Assembly: GCF_000317475.1 (NCBI RefSeq)
Contig: NC_019729.1
Location: 4,726,501 to 4,790,500 of the forward strand
Direction: 5' to 3'
DNA from: Oscillatoria nigro-viridis PCC 7112
GTDB lineage: Bacteria; Cyanobacteriota; Cyanobacteriia; Cyanobacteriales; Microcoleaceae
Length of the DNA: 64,000 nucleotides
Part shown: one piece after another, positions 35,452 through 54,387 of the stretch
Position numbering within the stretch: the first letter of the stretch is position 1
How the letters are laid out: each line of letters opens with the position of its first letter
Translations under genes and position numbers: made by a program
Notes under the pieces: generated by a model
Told to the model about the DNA's origin: nothing
Databases searched by the model: none
What the model saw: only the letters and a program-made list of their open reading frames with translations

Positions 35452-37126
35452 TGTTGATATTTCCCAAAAAATGGTAAGATTCTTAGAATCAATTTATCAG
35501 CAAACAGGAGGCTGCAGAAGATTTTTTTTAACTTCATGCTTTCGCCTGCTAGAGGAGCTGGTTTCCTCATCTTTACTCTTATAGATGCCACTTCAACCGC
35601 AAGGTTTTTTTCGCTCTGTTGCGAGTTTTATATTCGGCAATTGCGTACCAAAATTAATTGATATGCAACCTACACTGTAATTACTGCGCCGAAGCGCCGA
35701 GCATTTGAGATGTTCTCCGTAATTTCTACAGTAAGCTGCGCCGCAGGGCCCCTGATTGTAGATTCTCTACGTAACTTCTACAGTGAATTAGCTCAATTTA
35801 ACTCGCAACTGACAACTCCTAAATAACTACCCAAAACCTGTATCCCCCAAATTCTACCCTTGCTTTTTTTCCGATCTAGGCTGGGTGTATTGAAGTTTTG
35901 TAACACTCCCAGCTTTGACAAATCCTTCCCTGACTTAGGATTTGAATCTCTTTCCTAAACGACAGCACTCTCCTAATTTTAGTTCCCGATGAGTAATTAG
36001 AAATTTAGATAATTCGCCCAGGCAAATATTTGTTCTAATTTTTAGTTGCACAATTTTCTCTCGATTCGAGGAAACCTCGCGAACTGAGAATTTGTTTTTT
36101 TTCGGATTAATACTAAGAGTTCTGCAAAAATATATCTATCTCAAGACAGATTGCCAAATTTGCTAAAAAGTAGTATGCACGCAGGAGTCGTTTTTGGTGA
36201 CAGTTGCAAGCTCGATCGGCATTTTGAGCGGGCACGACCCGCGGCGAGGCTGCGAAACCCTGTTGCTTTGTAGAGGCTTCGCTACCAAATCCAATAATTC
36301 TCCGAGAAACCGGCTTGATGAGGCGTAATCCTCTAGATGCCCAAAATAATGGTTTCTGGAGAGTACCGGAATAATTTGGTTGCCGTTGTATTGTTGAGAG
36401 TTCTTGGCTGCTTACGTTTATTTTTACTGCTTAACTTTAACTAGATTAAGAGAGTTAAATTCAAAGTTTTCTATATCATAAAAGCGGTAAATTAGCAATA
36501 ATTTATTAGCAATTATCGACGATCGACTATCGATTACCGATCGCCACTGAGGTCTTAAGCATGAGGGCCCAGGGCTTACGGATGAGAACCCGGGGCTGAC
36601 CAATTAATTAATTGACACAAAATCAAGATTACACATGGGGGGTTGGTGGTAGAGGATAAGCGGTAAAGACCGATCGACGGATCGAAAAAAAAAATAAAAT
36701 ACTCAACTTTCCCTGCGATATTGCCCTGAAACCGGTTGGCGAGAGCCGAAGTAATTTTAATAAGAACTAGAGATCCGCCTGGTAAAGTGCCTCCAATTTA
36801 ACTTTACTCAGCAATGAGAAACTCAAGTTCAGGACGAATCTAAAGGGGTCTGCGGTAGAGGTGCAAAATGTTAAAGATAGCAAGATTGGAGAAAATTAGG
36901 CTTTCACCGAGCCACAGGGCAATCAAAACTAATAAACTGTTATTAAAGTACAACTTTTATATCCTCAAAGTGTTTGAACAAATATATATCACCCCAGCGA
37001 TCGCCCGATCGGGGGAAGCGCATTCAGAAACTTTGATTGGAACAGTAAAAATTATTTTGCCGATCGCTATTGCTAGCCGCAAAAACGCAGGCAAATTCAG
37101 AATTAAGGCGGGAGGGCGCTAAAGCG
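35452..37126. other. 1.7-kb gene-free region between giant RTX and CHAT genes
   Basis: No convincing gene is seen. Contents include two related segments with TTCTCCGTAATTTCTACAGT and TTCTCTACGTAACTTCTACA (about 35710-35790), a GAAACC-type repeat near 36300 and several HIP-like GATCG clusters (36520-36690). Promoters for both flanking genes must lie at its ends. Short frames such as 36868-37122 lack any family features. Confidence 0.5.
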
Positions 37127-38827
37127 GTGAGCCAGGAATTTCAACTCTCAGTCACCCCAGTTGGGGACGACGAATATCTAGTGCGGACAGAAAGGGTTGC
37201 ACCCGGTGTACCCTTAGCCGAACAACAAGTCCGCTGGCCGATCGACGAATGGCTTGCACTGTCTGCTCAACTGATGAACGACCCGCTGGTGGGCTTGCTC
37301 CAGGGAAAAGCAGTACACGGAAGCAGTTTGGCCGGTCGCGGCCTCTCCCGTTCGGGAAACAACTGTGCGCCGAATTTAGTAGCCCTAGGGCAACAATTAT
37401 ACAGCGGGCTGTTTCAAGGAAACTTGCGCGATAGCTGGACTTGCGCTCAAGGCATCGCCCAGCACCGCCGAGAAGTGCTGCAACTGCGACTCGGCCTCAA
37501 AGGCCGGCGCTTGCCGCGGCTGCCGTGGGAAGTTCTGCACGCGGGCGATCGCCCTTTGGCAACCGGCACCGATGTCGTGTTTTCTCGCTACCAACCAGGT
37601 ACAAGTTTATTCAAACAAACCCGGATACTGCCAAGTAGCGGGCCGCTAAAAATTTTAATGGCGATCGCCTCTCCGAGCGATCGAGACAGCTTGCAGCTCA
37701 AGCGAGAAGTGCTCCACCTGCAACAAGAACTCCAAAACCGCACCGGTAATCCTCTCAAAAACAGCCCCCATTCCCCGGAAATTCAACTGACTATTCTCGA
37801 ACAGCCCGATCGAGAACAACTTACCCAAGCCCTAGAACAAGGACACTACCAAGTCCTGCACTACGCAGGCCACAGCAACTTAGGTTCCAGAGGTGGCGAA
37901 CTCTACCTAGTCAGCAGCCGCACCGGCTTAACCGAAACCCTCAGTGGCGACGACTTAGCTGGATTGCTCGTTAACAACGGTATTCAGATGGCCGTGTTCA
38001 ACTCCTGCCGCGGCGCCTACGGCGACCCCTCAGACCTCGCGGACGACAGCGCGGAACGGAACTTAACCGAAGCTCTAGTGAAGCGGGGCATTCCGGCAGT
38101 GCTAGCAATGGCAGAAAGCATCCCCGACGATGTAGCCCTAACTCTGACGCGGTTGTTTTACCGCAATCTCAATCAAGGCTATCCAGTCGATCTCAGCCTG
38201 AGCCGGGCAAGAGCTGGGCTAATTTCTGCCTACGGTTCTCACCAGCTATACTGGGCTTTGCCGATTCTCTACCAGCACCCGGACTTTGACGGCTATTTGA
38301 CCGGCGGCCCAGCCCACAGTGCCACATCCGGTTCTATGGTGCACATAATCGGGTCGGGAACGCAACCGGCGCTGGGGGGTACAGAATGGAAGGCTCCGTC
38401 TTCGGTTTCGGCGATCGCCCCATACCCCCCAATCCCAGCCAATCGATCGCATGAGTCAGACAGTTCTGACGGCGAAGTCTGGGAATACTTTCCCGACCAA
38501 TTAAAAGATCGCAGGGATTGGGTTCACCAGAACGATCGACCCGATGCTGCTAATTCACCGAACTCACCGACGGCTTCGCCGTCCTCTATTCCTCATTCTG
38601 AGTGTTCGGCGATCCAAGCAACTCGCGCCGCTGCAGCGACTCAGAAACCGTTAAAAAAACCGGGGTTGAAAAAATCTGTCGCCCTAATACTTTGCTTATT
38701 GCCCGTTGCTTTGAGTGCTGGCTTTTTTGGGTGGCGGTACTCGCACCAGCGAGGAACGAAACCAGAAGAGTTACTGCCGGCGGTACGGACTCCCCTGTCG
38801 CAAAATTACCTGCAACAACGTCACTAA
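37127..38827 (+). CDS. CHAT-domain (caspase-like) membrane protein, C-terminus probably lost
   Basis: I chose GTG 37127 because the conserved N-terminus begins SQEFQLSVTPVGDDEYLV; an ATG at 37070 adds non-conserved residues. The ~566-residue protein has a CHAT peptidase domain with the catalytic pair in HYAGHSN (His near 249) and FNSCRG (Cys near 294), and the end LYWALPILYQHPDF. A Pro/Ser-rich linker, a basic patch and one membrane helix (about 514-538, SVALILCLLPVALSAGFFGW) follow. Family members in cyanobacteria usually continue with a TPR-rich region. Here another frame reads KLPATTSLKAIA just before the stop, suggesting a frameshift and loss of that part. Confidence 0.85.
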   Translation: MSQEFQLSVTPVGDDEYLVRTERVAPGVPLAEQQVRWPIDEWLALSAQLMNDPLVGLLQGKAVHGSSLAGRGLSRSGNNCAPNLVALGQQLYSGLFQGNLRDSWTCAQGIAQHRREVLQLRLGLKGRRLPRLPWEVLHAGDRPLATGTDVVFSRYQPGTSLFKQTRILPSSGPLKILMAIASPSDRDSLQLKREVLHLQQELQNRTGNPLKNSPHSPEIQLTILEQPDREQLTQALEQGHYQVLHYAGHSNLGSRGGELYLVSSRTGLTETLSGDDLAGLLVNNGIQMAVFNSCRGAYGDPSDLADDSAERNLTEALVKRGIPAVLAMAESIPDDVALTLTRLFYRNLNQGYPVDLSLSRARAGLISAYGSHQLYWALPILYQHPDFDGYLTGGPAHSATSGSMVHIIGSGTQPALGGTEWKAPSSVSAIAPYPPIPANRSHESDSSDGEVWEYFPDQLKDRRDWVHQNDRPDAANSPNSPTASPSSIPHSECSAIQATRAAAATQKPLKKPGLKKSVALILCLLPVALSAGFFGWRYSHQRGTKPEELLPAVRTPLSQNYLQQRH

Positions 38828-47241: not shown

Positions 47242-47691
47242 ATGCTGAGTTGTTATGATGCAGCCAAATACTTTTTGGCTCAGGCAAGTGAAGATGCTGG
47301 CGATCTGATATCTAATCTCAAGCTTCAGAAGTTGGTTTACTATGCTCAAGGGTTTCATTTAGCTTTGTACGATGAACCGCTATTTCCTGAAGCGATAGAA
47401 GCATGGACTCACGGGCCGGTTGTTCCTGACTTGTACCGTTACTATAAAAAGTATGGTGCTGGTGCAATTCCATGTCCTGAAGATATAGACTTTTCGATTT
47501 ACGACGAAGAAACTAAGAGCCTGCTTGATGAAGTTTATTCTGTGTTTGGACAGTTTGCTGCATGGAAGTTAGGCAAAATGACACAGGAAGAAGAACCCTG
47601 GAAATTTGCAGCTCAAAATAGCGGTAAAATCACTCATCAATCCCTGAAGGAATACTTCAAGACTCAACTCAATTGTGAAGAAGCATCTTAA
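47242..47691 (+). CDS. Panacea-domain (DUF4065/SocA-like) antitoxin
   Basis: The 149-residue protein matches the Panacea domain: CYDAAKYFLAQA, LISNLKLQKLVYYAQGFHLAL, DEPLFPEAIEAWTHGPVVPDLY and W-P-like EEEPWKFAA. Panacea proteins neutralise diverse toxins encoded next to them. The gene overlaps a second small gene by 17 bp. Antitoxin function is inferred from the known family and this arrangement. Confidence 0.88.
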   Translation: MLSCYDAAKYFLAQASEDAGDLISNLKLQKLVYYAQGFHLALYDEPLFPEAIEAWTHGPVVPDLYRYYKKYGAGAIPCPEDIDFSIYDEETKSLLDEVYSVFGQFAAWKLGKMTQEEEPWKFAAQNSGKITHQSLKEYFKTQLNCEEAS

Positions 47692-48088
47692 GGCAAATCA
47701 ACGCCAAGAAAAAGGGAAAAGGCTCTCACTTAGAGAAACTGTTGATGTACCGCCAGAGCAGCAGTCACCTCTATTTTCTTTGCGATACATGAATAAAGAT
47801 TACTCTCTTTCTCAATGCACAAAAGATGAAAAGGCTGCTTTTGCAGATACGCTCTACAAATTAAATCAGCTTACCTGGAGTGAGATTAATGCTTGTACCC
47901 GTCACGGATTGGGCTACGAGAAGATAGCCCGAAGTTCCATTAGAGCACCTATTCCCAGCCATCTTAAGGATGATGTAAATTTTATTGCTTTTCGGTTTTT
48001 CGGGAAGGCTCCGATGGTTGGTTATCGGGATGGGGCTGTGTTTTATGTTATTTGGTTGGACAGGGGTTTTACGCTTTACCCTCATTAA
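47675..48088 (+). CDS. Probable toxin partner of the Panacea antitoxin
   Basis: The 137-residue protein starts at GTG 47675 inside the antitoxin gene. It has a basic N-terminus (KKHLKANQRQEKGKRL), then FSLRYMNKDYSLSQCTKDEKAAFADTLYKLNQLTW, a conserved-looking HGLGYEKI and the end FRFFGKAPMVGYRDGAVFYVIWLD. The IxFRxxGKxPMVGYR segment recurs in unnamed phage and TA proteins as I recall. I cannot name the activity. The position strongly suggests the toxin. Confidence 0.68.
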   Translation: MKKHLKANQRQEKGKRLSLRETVDVPPEQQSPLFSLRYMNKDYSLSQCTKDEKAAFADTLYKLNQLTWSEINACTRHGLGYEKIARSSIRAPIPSHLKDDVNFIAFRFFGKAPMVGYRDGAVFYVIWLDRGFTLYPH

Positions 48089-50354: not shown

Positions 50355-50645
50355 ATACCATTTTAGATTTTAGATTTTAGATTTTAGATTTTAGATGGGG
50401 AATAACTTATGAATTAAATGTTTGGAGCGCGGGTCTACAGTTGCATTTTTTAGGGGATGGTATTATTTGGGTAATTTTAGTAGTGGCGGGTTCAAGAAAA
50501 TATTAAAGAGAAATGACTGAATTCCCTAAACTCGTCACTACAAGAATTATGTTGAAGGGACAGTATGAAATATCCCAACCTTTATCTCATTAGTTATTCC
50601 CAATTCCTCAATCTAAAATCTAAAATCTAAAATCTAAAATGGTAT
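50355..50645. repeat. MITE-like element with heptamer inverted ends
   Basis: Left arm: ATACCA followed by five TTTTAGA heptamers, then GGGGAATAACTTATGA (to 50411). Right arm (50587-50645) is the inverse: TCATTAGTTATTCCC, then four TCTAAAA and TGGTAT. The arms are about 58 bp. The right arm ends on the SDR start codon. Confidence 0.85.
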
Positions 50646-51432
50646 GATTTCTATCCAAAATCAAATTGTTTTCATTACAGGTGCGAGTAGCGGTATCGGA
50701 GCGGGCTGTGCCAAGATATTCGCCAAAGGTGGAGCCAAACTAATTTTAGCAGCCCGCCGCCTTGAAAAACTCGATCGACTGGCAAACGAACTTGTAGAAA
50801 CAAAATCCATCGCGTCGGCGAACGAGATTTATTTGCTAGAATTGGACGTGCGCGATCGCCCGCAAGTTGAATCGGCGATAGCTGCGCTTCCCGATGCCTG
50901 GAAAAACATCGATATTCTAATTAACAATGCGGGATTGAGCCGCGGTTTAGACAAACTGCACGAAGGCAGCTTTCAAGATTGGGAAGAAATGATTGATACC
51001 AATGTTAAAGGCTTGCTGTACATGACTCGCTCGATCGTGCCGGGAATGGTAAGCCGAGGCCGCGGCCACGTAGTGAATATCGGCTCAATAGCCGGCCGCC
51101 AAACTTATCCGAAAGGCAATGTTTATTGCGCTTCCAAAGCAGCAGTGAGAGCTATTTCTGAAGGGTTGAAACAAGACCTTTTGGGAACAGCAGTGCGGGT
51201 GACAGAGATAGAGCCTGGTTTGGTGGAAACAGAATTTAGCAATGTCCGGTTTCACGGCGATTCAGAAAAAGCAAAAAATGTCTATAAAGGATTGACACCT
51301 CTGACTGCGGACGATGTGGCCGATGTCGTGTATTTTTGCGCGACGCGATCGCCCCACGTCAATATTAGCGAAGTCTTGCTAGTTCCGACAGACCAAGCTA
51401 GTGCAACTCTGGTCCACCGAAAAGAGTTGTGA
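50644..51432 (+). CDS. Short-chain dehydrogenase/reductase (YdfG-like)
   Basis: The 262-residue SDR has the cofactor loop ITGASSGIGAG (about 9-19), the Arg-rich ILAARRLEKL that favours NADP, NNAGLSRG, the catalytic Ser in IGSIAG and YCASKAAV with Tyr/Lys, and the tail ISEVLLVPTDQ. It is closest in pattern to the YdfG branch (3-hydroxy acid/serine dehydrogenases). The exact substrate is not known. The start codon is the end of the heptamer inverted repeat, and no ribosome site is visible. Confidence 0.9.
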   Translation: MISIQNQIVFITGASSGIGAGCAKIFAKGGAKLILAARRLEKLDRLANELVETKSIASANEIYLLELDVRDRPQVESAIAALPDAWKNIDILINNAGLSRGLDKLHEGSFQDWEEMIDTNVKGLLYMTRSIVPGMVSRGRGHVVNIGSIAGRQTYPKGNVYCASKAAVRAISEGLKQDLLGTAVRVTEIEPGLVETEFSNVRFHGDSEKAKNVYKGLTPLTADDVADVVYFCATRSPHVNISEVLLVPTDQASATLVHRKEL

Positions 51433-51487
51433 GTTTTTAGTGGTAAGTGTCCGGATGGCGCTCGAATTCTCAGGAAGCTTAATTGGT

Positions 51488-51538
51488 AGATGCACCCTGA
51501 TTAAATAACTCCCGACCAATTTTGGCCGGGTTTTTTTT
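51488..51538 (+). ncRNA. Putative sRNA unit 1
   Basis: AGATGCACCCTGATTAA plus ATAACTCC, then the hairpin CCCGACCA-ATTT-TGGCCGGG (one A-C mismatch) and eight T. The upstream box is TCCGGA (51450-51455), 23 bp before TTAATT (51479-51484). Predicted transcript about 50 nt. The start site is inferred. Confidence 0.65.
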
Positions 51539-51625
51539 GGCGATCGCCCGCCCTCGCCACACATTCTCCAAAATTCTGCCAAAGTGTCCTGAAAGAGGTG
51601 CTGTGAGACGGGAGACTAAATTAGT

Positions 51626-51676
51626 AGATGCACCCTGATTAAATAACTCCCGACCAATTTTGGTGGGGTTTTTTTT
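51626..51676 (+). ncRNA. Putative sRNA unit 2
   Basis: Same invariant segment, hairpin CCCGACCA-ATTT-TGGTGGGG, then eight T. Here the A of the 5' arm pairs with T, with a G-G mismatch next to it. The upstream box is TCCTGA (51587-51592), 24 bp before TAAATT (51617-51622). Confidence 0.63.
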
Positions 51677-51752
51677 GCGGTATCGACGGTGATGCTGAAT
51701 AAAGTTTGAGGTTGTCCGGATGGCGCTCGAATTCTCAGGAAGCTTAATTGGT

Positions 51753-51806
51753 AGATGCACCCTGATTAATTAACTCCCCGCCAATTCTGGTTTGGGGGTT
51801 TTTTTT
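51753..51806 (+). ncRNA. Putative sRNA unit 3
   Basis: Invariant segment with TTAACTCC, a hairpin with CCCC..GGGG closing pairs and a bulge, then eight T. The upstream region repeats unit 1 almost exactly, with TCCGGA (51715-51720), 23 bp before TTAATT (51744-51749). Confidence 0.63.
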
Positions 51807-51892
51807 GGCGATCGCACCCCAAACCGCAAATTTTCCCAAAATTTCCCAAACTTTCCGGAACAGGTACACCTCCAACCGGAGACTAAATTAGT

Positions 51893-51944
51893 AGATGCAC
51901 CCTGATTAATTAACTCCCGACCAATTTTGGCCGGGTTTTTTTTT
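51893..51944 (+). ncRNA. Putative sRNA unit 4
   Basis: Invariant segment, the same hairpin as unit 1 and nine T. The upstream box is TCCGGA (51854-51859), 24 bp before TAAATT (51884-51889). Its leader matches unit 2. Confidence 0.65.
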
Positions 51945-52067
51945 CGTATTGCAGCCAAAACCACAAAATTTCAATAAATCAAGAATTATCCGCGTTAATC
52001 TGCGTACATCTGCGGTCAAAAATCAACTTTGTCCCGAACATCGTGCTAGCCACTGGAAAGTAAATAA

Positions 52068-52118
52068 AGATGCACCCTGATTAATAAACCCCAGCCAATT
52101 TTGGCCGGGGTTTTTTTT
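52068..52118 (+). ncRNA. Putative sRNA unit 5
   Basis: Invariant segment with TAAACCCC, hairpin CCCCAGCCA-ATT-TTGGCCGGGG and eight T. The upstream box is TCCCGA (52032-52037), 23 bp before TAAATA (52061-52066). It has the most diverged leader of the five, yet keeps spacing and hairpin. Confidence 0.62.
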
Positions 52119-52144
52119 CTCGAAAGCTGGATTAACCAATTAGG

Positions 52145-52366
52145 CTAAATCGCCTCAAAAGACTGCACCTCAAGCACCGGGCCGATCATAGCAAAAGTCA
52201 TCACATCCTTGCGGACTTCACCTTTAACACTGACTTTCAAACCAGCTTTTTTCAAGTCAGAAGGAGCATCCTTAAGTTCGTAAGTTTCCCCATCTTCGCC
52301 AACCAAAGCCCAAGTGCCCGGGCCTAATCCTTTGCGTTCAATTTCACCTTTGACAGTAATACTCAT
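52145..52366 (-). CDS. Small OB-like protein, unknown function
   Basis: The 73-residue protein (MSITVKGEIERKGLGPGTWALVGEDGETYEL..KVSVKGEVRKDVMTFAMIGPVLEVQSFE) is a run of short beta-strands with the look of a small OB barrel. Its ATG overlaps the stop of the upstream subtilase by ATGA, so they form one unit. Function not known. Confidence 0.72.
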   Translation of the reverse strand: MSITVKGEIERKGLGPGTWALVGEDGETYELKDAPSDLKKAGLKVSVKGEVRKDVMTFAMIGPVLEVQSFEAI

Positions 52367-54132
52367 GCCGATCGCACCTCTGTTTTAATCGCTAAACGTG
52401 CCAGTCCGAAACACAGAAAAGCATTGACAATCAAAAATGTTTGTGCTAGCACACCAGTGCCCAATCCCCAGACTGCGGGAGACACAAAAGCATTCACCGC
52501 TAAACTGCTGGCAAAACCGATCGAAATGGCGATCGCGATCCACTTCCACTGTTGATGTCCCAACAGCAAAGCAATCAAAATCCCAGGAATCAAAACGCTA
52601 GCAAAAAAGGGATTCAGCATACTGCTGCCATTAATTGCACCGCCGAGTTCGGGAATAGAACTGCCCATCACCCGCATCGGCCACTGCGGCAAGTCAAATA
52701 CAAACAAGTTCCGCAGGAAAAAGAACCCAGAACTACCAGCCATCAAGCCGCCGGAAAAGCCCCAAGTCCACTGGAACGGAAAATAATTCCGCAAAAAGAA
52801 AGCCAGCAGGTAAGAACCGAGCACCATGGCAATTTTAGGCAACAGGGCGACTGCACCGCCGTCAATCCAAAAGCGGGGGTTGAGATAGCCGTTATCGCGC
52901 AGCCAGCGGAAGAAATCGCGGAAGTTGATTTGTCCGCGCTGGGCTAGCTGAACTGCTGCGGCTGCGTCGAGGTGTCCCGAACCAAAATGGTTTAACGGAT
53001 CTTCAGCGACATTTCGCGAGGACTGCAAAAGTACGCTGCGAATCGCGTCTGGTTCTGTGATGCCGGAAGCCTTGACAAGGGCTGCAACGGCTGCAACGTG
53101 GGGAGAAGCCATGCTAGTGCCTTGGTAGCCTTCAAATACTTCGGCGCCGGTTTCCGGGTCGATCGTACTTTGCAGGATTTTGCCCATTTCAGAACCGCCG
53201 GGGGCTGAAATGTCAACTCCCGCGCCGAAATTGGAGTAAGGGGCTTTTTCGTCGTCGGGGCCGAGGGCGGAAACGCCGATGACGTGGGGATAGCGGGCGG
53301 GATAGGAAGCGGAACTCTCGCCGGAGTTGCCGGCGGCTGCGATGATGACAACGCCTTTGGAGTGGGCGTAGTCGATCGCCTCTTCCATTAACTGACTTTC
53401 GCCACCGCCGCCGAGACTCATGTTGATGACATCTGCGCCGTTGTCAGCAGCAAATTTAATCGCTTCGGCGATGTCGGAAACCGTGCCGCCACCGCTGCCG
53501 CCTAACACTTTTAGCGGCATTAAAGCTGCTTCGTAGGCGATGCCTGCGACGCCATAATTGTTGTTAGTTGATTGGGCGACAGTACCTGCGACGTGAGTAC
53601 CGTGGCCGTTGTCATCGTAGGCTTCGGCGCGATCGTTTACAAAGTCGTAGCCCGGTACAAATTTGGTTTCTTTTAAGTCAGCGACGGGACTAATGCCCGT
53701 GTCAATTATCGCTACTGTTGTGCCGCTGCCTTTGGTTTCGTTCCAGGCAGATTCTACATTGATGCTGCGGAGATTCCACTGCTTGGTATACATGGGGTCG
53801 TTGGGAATCTCGAAAGCGCTGTAGACGTAGTTGGGTTCAATGTATTCGGTATCTTTAGCCAAATTTGATTTTCTCAGGGCGTTTAGCAAAGTGCGATCGC
53901 CCTTAACTACATATACATTGTCGCCCGCTGAGAATTCGCTGTTGAGTTGCGGTGCGACTTGGTACTGTTGGGCGATCGCATTTACTTCTTTTGCAATCTC
54001 AGCAGCACCCAAATCTTCGCGGAAATCAAGCACAATCGAGTCGTAAGTGCCTTGAGTAGCAAGTCCTGGGAAATTAGAAATCGCCCAGCCGAGCCCGATT
54101 AAAAATAAGCACAGAAGGAAAAACTTTTTCAT
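52363..54132 (-). CDS. S8 subtilisin-like protease with C-terminal membrane helices
   Basis: I use the start at MKKFFLLCLFLIGLGWAI (nt 54132); a longer frame begins 12 codons upstream. The numbers here follow that longer frame. After the signal segment and a propeptide-like region (about 45-120), the catalytic domain has Asp 156 (VAIIDTGIS), His 189 (NGHGTHVAG) and Ser in YQGTSMASPHVAAVAAL. After residue ~420, three or more hydrophobic helices follow (IAMVLGSYLLAFFL, GLMAGSSGFFFL, FFASVLIPGILIALLL), an unusual membrane-anchored tail. It is coupled to the small OB-like gene. Confidence 0.9.
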   Translation of the reverse strand: MKKFFLLCLFLIGLGWAISNFPGLATQGTYDSIVLDFREDLGAAEIAKEVNAIAQQYQVAPQLNSEFSAGDNVYVVKGDRTLLNALRKSNLAKDTEYIEPNYVYSAFEIPNDPMYTKQWNLRSINVESAWNETKGSGTTVAIIDTGISPVADLKETKFVPGYDFVNDRAEAYDDNGHGTHVAGTVAQSTNNNYGVAGIAYEAALMPLKVLGGSGGGTVSDIAEAIKFAADNGADVINMSLGGGGESQLMEEAIDYAHSKGVVIIAAAGNSGESSASYPARYPHVIGVSALGPDDEKAPYSNFGAGVDISAPGGSEMGKILQSTIDPETGAEVFEGYQGTSMASPHVAAVAALVKASGITEPDAIRSVLLQSSRNVAEDPLNHFGSGHLDAAAAVQLAQRGQINFRDFFRWLRDNGYLNPRFWIDGGAVALLPKIAMVLGSYLLAFFLRNYFPFQWTWGFSGGLMAGSSGFFFLRNLFVFDLPQWPMRVMGSSIPELGGAINGSSMLNPFFASVLIPGILIALLLGHQQWKWIAIAISIGFASSLAVNAFVSPAVWGLGTGVLAQTFLIVNAFLCFGLARLAIKTEVRSA

Positions 54133-54387
54133 GGCCGATCGTCCGTTTAGGGAAGGCTTGTTCACCACAATAACCCAATTTTCACCGCCAGCGCCAGTTT
54201 TCCTTGCTGCGACTTGTGGGGATCTCGCACGCGGGGGTTTGGTAGTTTTCGGCGGTGGCTGTTGAGCGATCGAAAATTGCTCTAATTCCTAGTTTAAATT
54301 GCAGAGCAAGTTTTAGTAGTTCAATGAATTGTATCATTAGAGAAGATGAGAAACAGAACAAGCGAGTATTTTCAACAAGGTTATTGC

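Follow-up and report, generated by a model that had tools for sequence, protein, structure and literature searches.

Array and gene neighborhood

Within the window, i.e. the whole 64-kb stretch of DNA that was analysed, five tandem units are located between an SDR oxidoreductase gene, lying upstream on the same strand, and a convergent gene of 73 codons, here called ssl, which is followed by an S8 protease gene (Table 1); the original prediction had described this placement correctly. The array spans positions 51488-52119 of the forward strand, with distances of 138, 127, 140 and 175 nt between successive units. Each unit is built, from 5' to 3', of the 17-mer AGATGCACCCTGATTAA, identical in all five, a short AC-rich spacer, a stem and a run of 8-9 T; the identical segment and the hairpin followed by T claimed at the outset are thus present in every copy. 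The closest named locus found by blastn is a Microcoleus contig (L152, 94% over 2425 bases), and close homologs of the SDR gene adjoin the array in that contig and in L069.

Two further elements of the window were noticed. The sequence ATCCGCGTTAATCTGCGTACATCTGCGG at 51985-52020, inside the array, resembles a dispersed repeat and has near matches elsewhere in the genome. At 47242-48088, a Panacea/SocA-like gene precedes a small gene that matches MAG6450 below the cut-off; the two may form a toxin-antitoxin pair.

Table 1. Features of the window.
Feature	Position	Strand	Evidence or remark
hetF-like gene, ~12.7 kb upstream of the array	37070..38827	+	NF045509, 638 bits (cut-off 1200), model 2-390 of 836
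SDR oxidoreductase gene, upstream of the array	50644..51432	+	Pfam adh_short; on the side of hetF in Nostoc-type arrays
DIF1 motif TCCGGA, unit 1	51450..51455	+	6/6, 38 nt upstream of AGATG
NsiR1 unit 1 (seed, spacer, terminator)	51488..51538	+	RF02399, 48.7 bits, match 51484-51538
DIF1-like motif TCCTGA, unit 2	51587..51592	+	5/6, 39 nt upstream
NsiR1 unit 2	51626..51676	+	RF02399, 45.9 bits, match 51622-51676
DIF1 motif TCCGGA, unit 3	51715..51720	+	6/6, 38 nt upstream
NsiR1 unit 3	51753..51806	+	RF02399, 53.5 bits, highest of the five
DIF1 motif TCCGGA, unit 4	51854..51859	+	6/6, 39 nt upstream
NsiR1 unit 4	51893..51944	+	RF02399, 47.1 bits
DIF1-like motif TCCCGA, unit 5	52032..52037	+	5/6, 36 nt upstream
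NsiR1 unit 5	52068..52119	+	RF02399, 39.4 bits (gathering score 39)
ssl gene (73 aa), convergent, 3' neighbor as in Nostoc-type arrays	52145..52366	-	DUF5818 match below cut-off; homologs occupy this position at other arrays
S8 protease-DUF5942 gene, next after ssl	52363..54168	-	Pfam; synteny

Identity, promoters and terminators of the units

A search of the window against Rfam returned five matches, all to RF02399 (NsiR1), one per unit and at full model length. Their scores (39.4-53.5 bits) all reach or exceed the gathering score (39), with E-values from 3.1e-4 to 9.9e-8 for a search space equal to the whole window. Judged by these matches, the tandem array of five is a new set of copies of the known RNA family NsiR1, and a novel sRNA family is ruled out by the RF02399 match in all five units. 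The statement that no array of this sequence was known proved wrong, NsiR1 (RF02399) having already been published as a tandem array. NsiR1 is known above all for its role in the formation of nitrogen-fixing cells, with HetR as the master regulator; HetR-dependent transcription induced by nitrogen stress is one of its hallmarks.

A DIF1-type hexamer (TCCGGA, at least 5/6) is found 36-39 nt before AGATG in 5/5 units, exact in three and with one mismatch in two, vs 0/5 for shuffled upstream sequences; the original prediction did not mention these motifs. DIF1 is described as the -35 element of heterocyst-specific promoters (PMC6133370). At -26 to -60 of the array units, the DIF1-type motifs are not accompanied by any HetR palindrome of the GGGGTNNNACCC type (0/5). 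The motif was then counted in at least 118 named stretches sorted by genus name into heterocyst-formers and others, the latter an approximate label that includes MAGs. Among the matches listed, it occurs (at least 5/6) in 128/131 units of heterocyst-formers vs 5/131 shuffled upstream sequences, and in 80/88 units of the other loci vs 6/88. Units without the terminator pattern (35 from heterocyst-formers, 14 from others and one from the host) and units too close to contig ends were left out of these counts; separate counts were kept for three units from a strain of ambiguous assignment and for the host's dispersed copies.

Folding of the single units gives minimum free energies of -9.5 to -17.1 kcal/mol, clearly better than shuffled sequences for unit 5 alone (z -2.84; the other four, z -0.90 to -1.14). 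The T run is directly preceded by a stem of 5 bp or longer in 57/57 units, 10 from the host genome and 47 from non-heterocystous loci, vs 17/57 when the middle is shuffled, a test that is not independent since the 47 units were fetched by a pattern demanding GGG before the T run. The sequence of the stems varies widely among the 57 units, and in 44 of them none of the first 14 nt is paired. The original description, a tandem array of genes for putative sRNAs of about 50 nt, each largely single-stranded in its 5' portion and ending in an intrinsic terminator, in a cyanobacterium, is considered right. It was also claimed that pairs are kept although bases differ: the terminator does persist, but an alignment of 18 units contains no compensatory base pair. 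RNA-level covariation of the hairpin, which had been proposed as a check, is accordingly rejected. The consensus of this alignment retains only three pairs, linking the seed to the terminator, which we read as spurious.

Copies elsewhere in the host genome

The host is a Microcoleus-like filament. Its genome (8.27 Mb, 6 contigs) contains one HetR match, one HetP-family gene and, upstream of HetR, a PatX-like ORF with RGSGR. No nifH above the family cut-off was found in the host or in six genus mates (0/7); judged from nifH, the host presumably forms no heterocysts.

Five further NsiR1-related copies lie elsewhere in the chromosome, outside the array. Over the whole genome, Rfam returns 8 RF02399 matches, 7/8 at or over the gathering score; those beyond the array are at C1:5439936, 189433 and 1356739 (the latter below the gathering score). 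A search with the seed adds two copies of the same build that are not listed by Rfam, at C1:2898018 and 4477689. The 5439936 copy has DIF1 upstream. The copies at 189433, 1356739 and 2898018 have no DIF1, and a GGGGTNNNACCCC palindrome starts 37-44 nt upstream of each. This palindrome fits the HetR site reported at hetP, GAGGGGTCTAACCCCTC, and the GGGnnnnnCCC required there (PMC4192349); some HetR targets without this palindrome are described in the same source. Eight such palindromes are present in the host genome (reversed control, 4). Three precede intact NsiR1 copies. A fourth, C1:4479984, belongs to the 4477689 copy: judged against a relative in which the site is intact (L222), it is the split-off promoter of that copy. 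NsiR1 genes thus appear to fall into two promoter classes, carrying either DIF1 or a HetR-box palindrome in its place. Most units examined have a promoter motif and a terminator, which is not the pattern of an untranscribed dispersed repeat inside genes, the refuting case named in the original prediction.

As a side observation, the split copy is separated from its HetR-box promoter by an inserted element that has inverted ends and is flanked on each side by TATATA (G000:C1:4477689-4479996; L172, L239).

Survey of 386 genomes

The palindrome-plus-seed pattern was found in 41/386 genomes, distributed among 24 genera (reversed-pattern control, 0), and HetR is present in 40 of these 41. Among 30 fetched HetR-box loci, gatB adjoins the copy in 10, serS in one (the host) and neither gene in 19. 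Clustering of ORFs, in which the 1356739 copy of the host was also included, gave 11 gatB loci. In the Microcoleus-like and Lyngbya loci among the named stretches, the neighbor is serS (at least 7 loci).

HetR was detected in 80/386 genomes, each of which also gives an NsiR1 match; RF02399 matches occur in 95/386 genomes and exceed the cut-off in 80. Strong matches (E <=1e-5) also number 80 genomes, a set defined separately from the 80 over the cut-off; they occur in 78/80 HetR genomes vs 2/306 others (Fisher p 8e-77, a value that treats genomes as unrelated and leaves shared ancestry uncorrected). The exceptions are two HetR genomes without a strong match (G052, G077) and two genomes with a strong match and no HetR (G223, G302). 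As a control, RF02399 gave a below-cut-off match in 1/14 control genomes (E. coli). Two observations were made in genomes devoid of a HetR match. G223 (6.2 Mb, 320 contigs) has 11 NsiR1 matches and four HetR-box copies, and its hetR may have been missed, since these copies are present; an assembly gap is perhaps responsible. Single weak RF02399 matches in f5 g24 and f25 g76 genomes (E 2.6e-5 to 5.2e-4) are perhaps due to chance or to a distant relative.

The distribution extends beyond heterocyst-formers, for which we take family f6: 38/80 strong-NsiR1 genomes are outside this family. Genomes combining strong NsiR1 and HetR in which nifH is not found over the cut-off number 35, 21 of them outside f6; in several f6 genomes a full nifH match is lacking, apparently owing to an interruption or a split of the gene.

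These results bear on the question of whether the array is a relic, i.e. a HetR-linked sRNA inherited from an ancestor that formed heterocysts or fixed N2, and functionless today. The lack of nifH over the cut-off in all seven genus members, a hetF that is non-adjacent and shorter than its model, and the insertion cutting one NsiR1 copy of the host from its promoter are in line with such an origin. We nevertheless consider it unlikely, for all five units of the array have kept seed, DIF1-type motif and terminator, each of the seven genus members has from 6 to at least 13 NsiR1 matches, and the proportion of strong-NsiR1 genomes outside f6 is that given above.

Relation to hetF and constancy of the seed

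Gene order is partly conserved. The succession NsiR1-ssl-S8 protease is common to the window and to Nostoc-type loci, which display a divergent hetF on the other side of the array where the fetched stretch reaches that far. This adjacency and divergence is not found in the window, where the SDR gene occupies that side and the hetF-like gene is shorter than the HetF model, matching its first half alone. The adjacency of hetF is a context feature of Nostoc, outside the RNA family definition of RF02399. The full order hetF-NsiR1-ssl-S8 also occurs in the non-heterocystous loci L110 and L150, and hetF adjoins NsiR1 in the non-heterocystous L079 and L122. The hetF-NsiR1 arrangement is therefore probably older than heterocysts.

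The seed is exact in 377/441 units anchored by promoter motif and terminator and bears one change in 52, a constancy that is overstated since most of these loci were fetched using the seed. Read in this light, the constant part of NsiR1 units is the 5' seed. A variant seed, AGATGCACCTTGAT, is present in the hetF-nearest unit of 37/42 heterocyst-former loci with hetF, or 36/41 if L011 and L057, one place fetched twice, are counted once; 16 of the 42 are classed as heterocyst-formers by their family, f6. The variant copy lies 184-190 nt from the hetF start in 25/37 loci, and five heterocyst-former hetF loci are without it (L012, L031, L036, L073, L109). The nearest unit in the non-heterocystous hetF-linked loci has the canonical seed and is located 331-701 nt from hetF (4/4). 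T at seed position 10 was found in 39/441 anchored units, all in heterocyst-former or f6 loci, vs 0/102 units of other named loci and 0/7 of the host genome; variants on other contigs would be missed here, because the other loci were fetched by the canonical seed. We read the variant-seed copy as a probable addition of heterocyst-formers and the canonical, putatively trans-acting seed as ancestral. The variant copy would correspond to NsiR1.1 of Nostoc, with which it is equated by position only.

Silencing of hetF by an overlapping antisense copy, in the manner of NsiR1.1 in Nostoc, would suit the gene orders observed in Nostoc-type loci and in the four non-heterocystous ones. It is quite improbable for this array: the hetF-like gene of the window is ~12.7 kb away on the same strand, the variant seed is absent here as it is from all four non-heterocystous hetF-linked loci, and pairing with the hetF start region is no better than background (see below). 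That the seed is instead a tiny leaderless ORF, read ATG CAC CCT GAT TAA (MHPD-stop) and acting via translation, has in its favor an ATG near the likely 5' end in 5/5 units and is hardly credible, given that MHPD is kept in only 6/64 changed-seed units, that 39/64 have T at position 10 (mostly Pro to Leu), that the frame beyond GAT is not conserved and that NsiR1 is reported to pair with mRNA in Nostoc (PMC9045159). A coding repeat is likewise rejected by the seed changes and the unconserved frame among anchored units.

Search for targets

Four NsiR1 versions were paired with the start regions of hetF, the hetP-like gene, hetR and patX, using 32 mechanically listed ORFs of the window and 200 shuffled sRNAs as background. 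None of the four start regions was outstanding, with ranks of 2-23/32 and 14-183/200 shuffles pairing equally well. The lowest shuffle count was obtained for the hetP-like gene with the S1356739 copy (14/200, rank 5/32). The best rank was that of patX with the S189433 copy (2/32), yet 80/200 shuffles were as good. Near-complementary sites in the genome number 76 vs 21 in a reversed control, the excess consisting partly of NsiR1 copies and partly, as judged by eye, of a dispersed repeat ATCTGCGT..ATCT. Inspection of 20 of the 76 sites revealed five with a possible start codon nearby, none convincing.

Proposed mechanism

The reading we favor, with a probability of roughly 0.8, is that the array consists of five NsiR1 sRNA genes, each having its own DIF1-type promoter motif and intrinsic terminator, which would be transcribed into RNAs of about 50 nt whose mostly single-stranded 5' seed, AGATGCACCCTGAT, is invariant. 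The array would be an output of HetR-HetZ that raises the dose of a trans-acting sRNA in a host devoid of nifH over the cut-off, other chromosomal copies being driven directly by HetR boxes. Most likely, HetR would switch the array on via HetZ and DIF1, a route described in PMC7377430, and would directly activate the HetR-box copies. In the resulting higher sRNA level, the mostly single-stranded seed would pair with mRNA start regions.

A broader scheme can be proposed more tentatively, at somewhat less than even odds. NsiR1 may be no invention of heterocyst-formers and may instead belong, as its sRNA branch, to an older HetR-PatX-HetZ circuit shared by HetR-bearing filamentous cyanobacteria. 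It would have two readouts, HetR boxes driving single copies directly (one of them recurrently beside gatB) and HetZ/DIF1 driving the array. Heterocyst-formers would later have gained the seed-variant copy, adjacent to hetF and in antisense orientation. In filaments without heterocysts, a subset of cells that has so far gone unseen would be marked by NsiR1 and be its site of action. The circuit of non-heterocystous filaments may be wired differently, since the effects of PatX are reported to be basically HetR-independent in Leptolyngbya BL0902 (PMC11298460).

The role of HetR and PatX in heterocyst-less filaments is called a mystery in the latter source (PMC11298460). A multicopy HetR-linked sRNA in such organisms, with promoter motifs short enough for fusion to reporters, would make this question directly testable. 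Should the two-promoter pattern hold experimentally, NsiR1 would cease to be a mere marker of heterocysts and would report HetR activity generally across multicellular cyanobacteria.

Comparison with known systems

A non-heterocystous filament with an NsiR1-like gene is already on record (PMC8400943): RNA162 of Limnospira indica PCC 8005, a filament without heterocysts or N2 fixation, is an NsiR1-like sRNA. It is a single gene of 57 nt, and the portion of that source available to us gives no array, promoter analysis or phyletic survey. The co-occurrence with HetR, the HetR-box copies and the late hetF variant were not found in the literature searched, in which no query paired NsiR1 with HetR-box or gatB; earlier papers may already report NsiR1 in non-heterocystous filaments. 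NsiR8 and NsiR9 of Nostoc share HetR dependence with NsiR1 and differ from it in range, homologs being described in heterocystous genomes only, and in size (171 and 122 nt), which rules them out as the identity of the units (PMC4734099).

The nearest counterpart is NsiR1 of Nostoc/Anabaena PCC 7120, described as 12 tandem copies upstream of hetF, with individual promoters containing DIF1 and HetR-dependent, and as a repressor of hetF and of the hetP-like alr3234 (PMC9045159). Both systems have in common the RNA family, the tandem array, one DIF1 motif per copy and the intrinsic terminator; the ssl-S8 neighbors are shared with Nostoc-type loci other than PCC 7120. The host differs from PCC 7120 by its five copies instead of 12, by a non-adjacent hetF, by the absence of a hetF-proximal variant copy and of nifH over the cut-off, and by its dispersed copies with HetR boxes.
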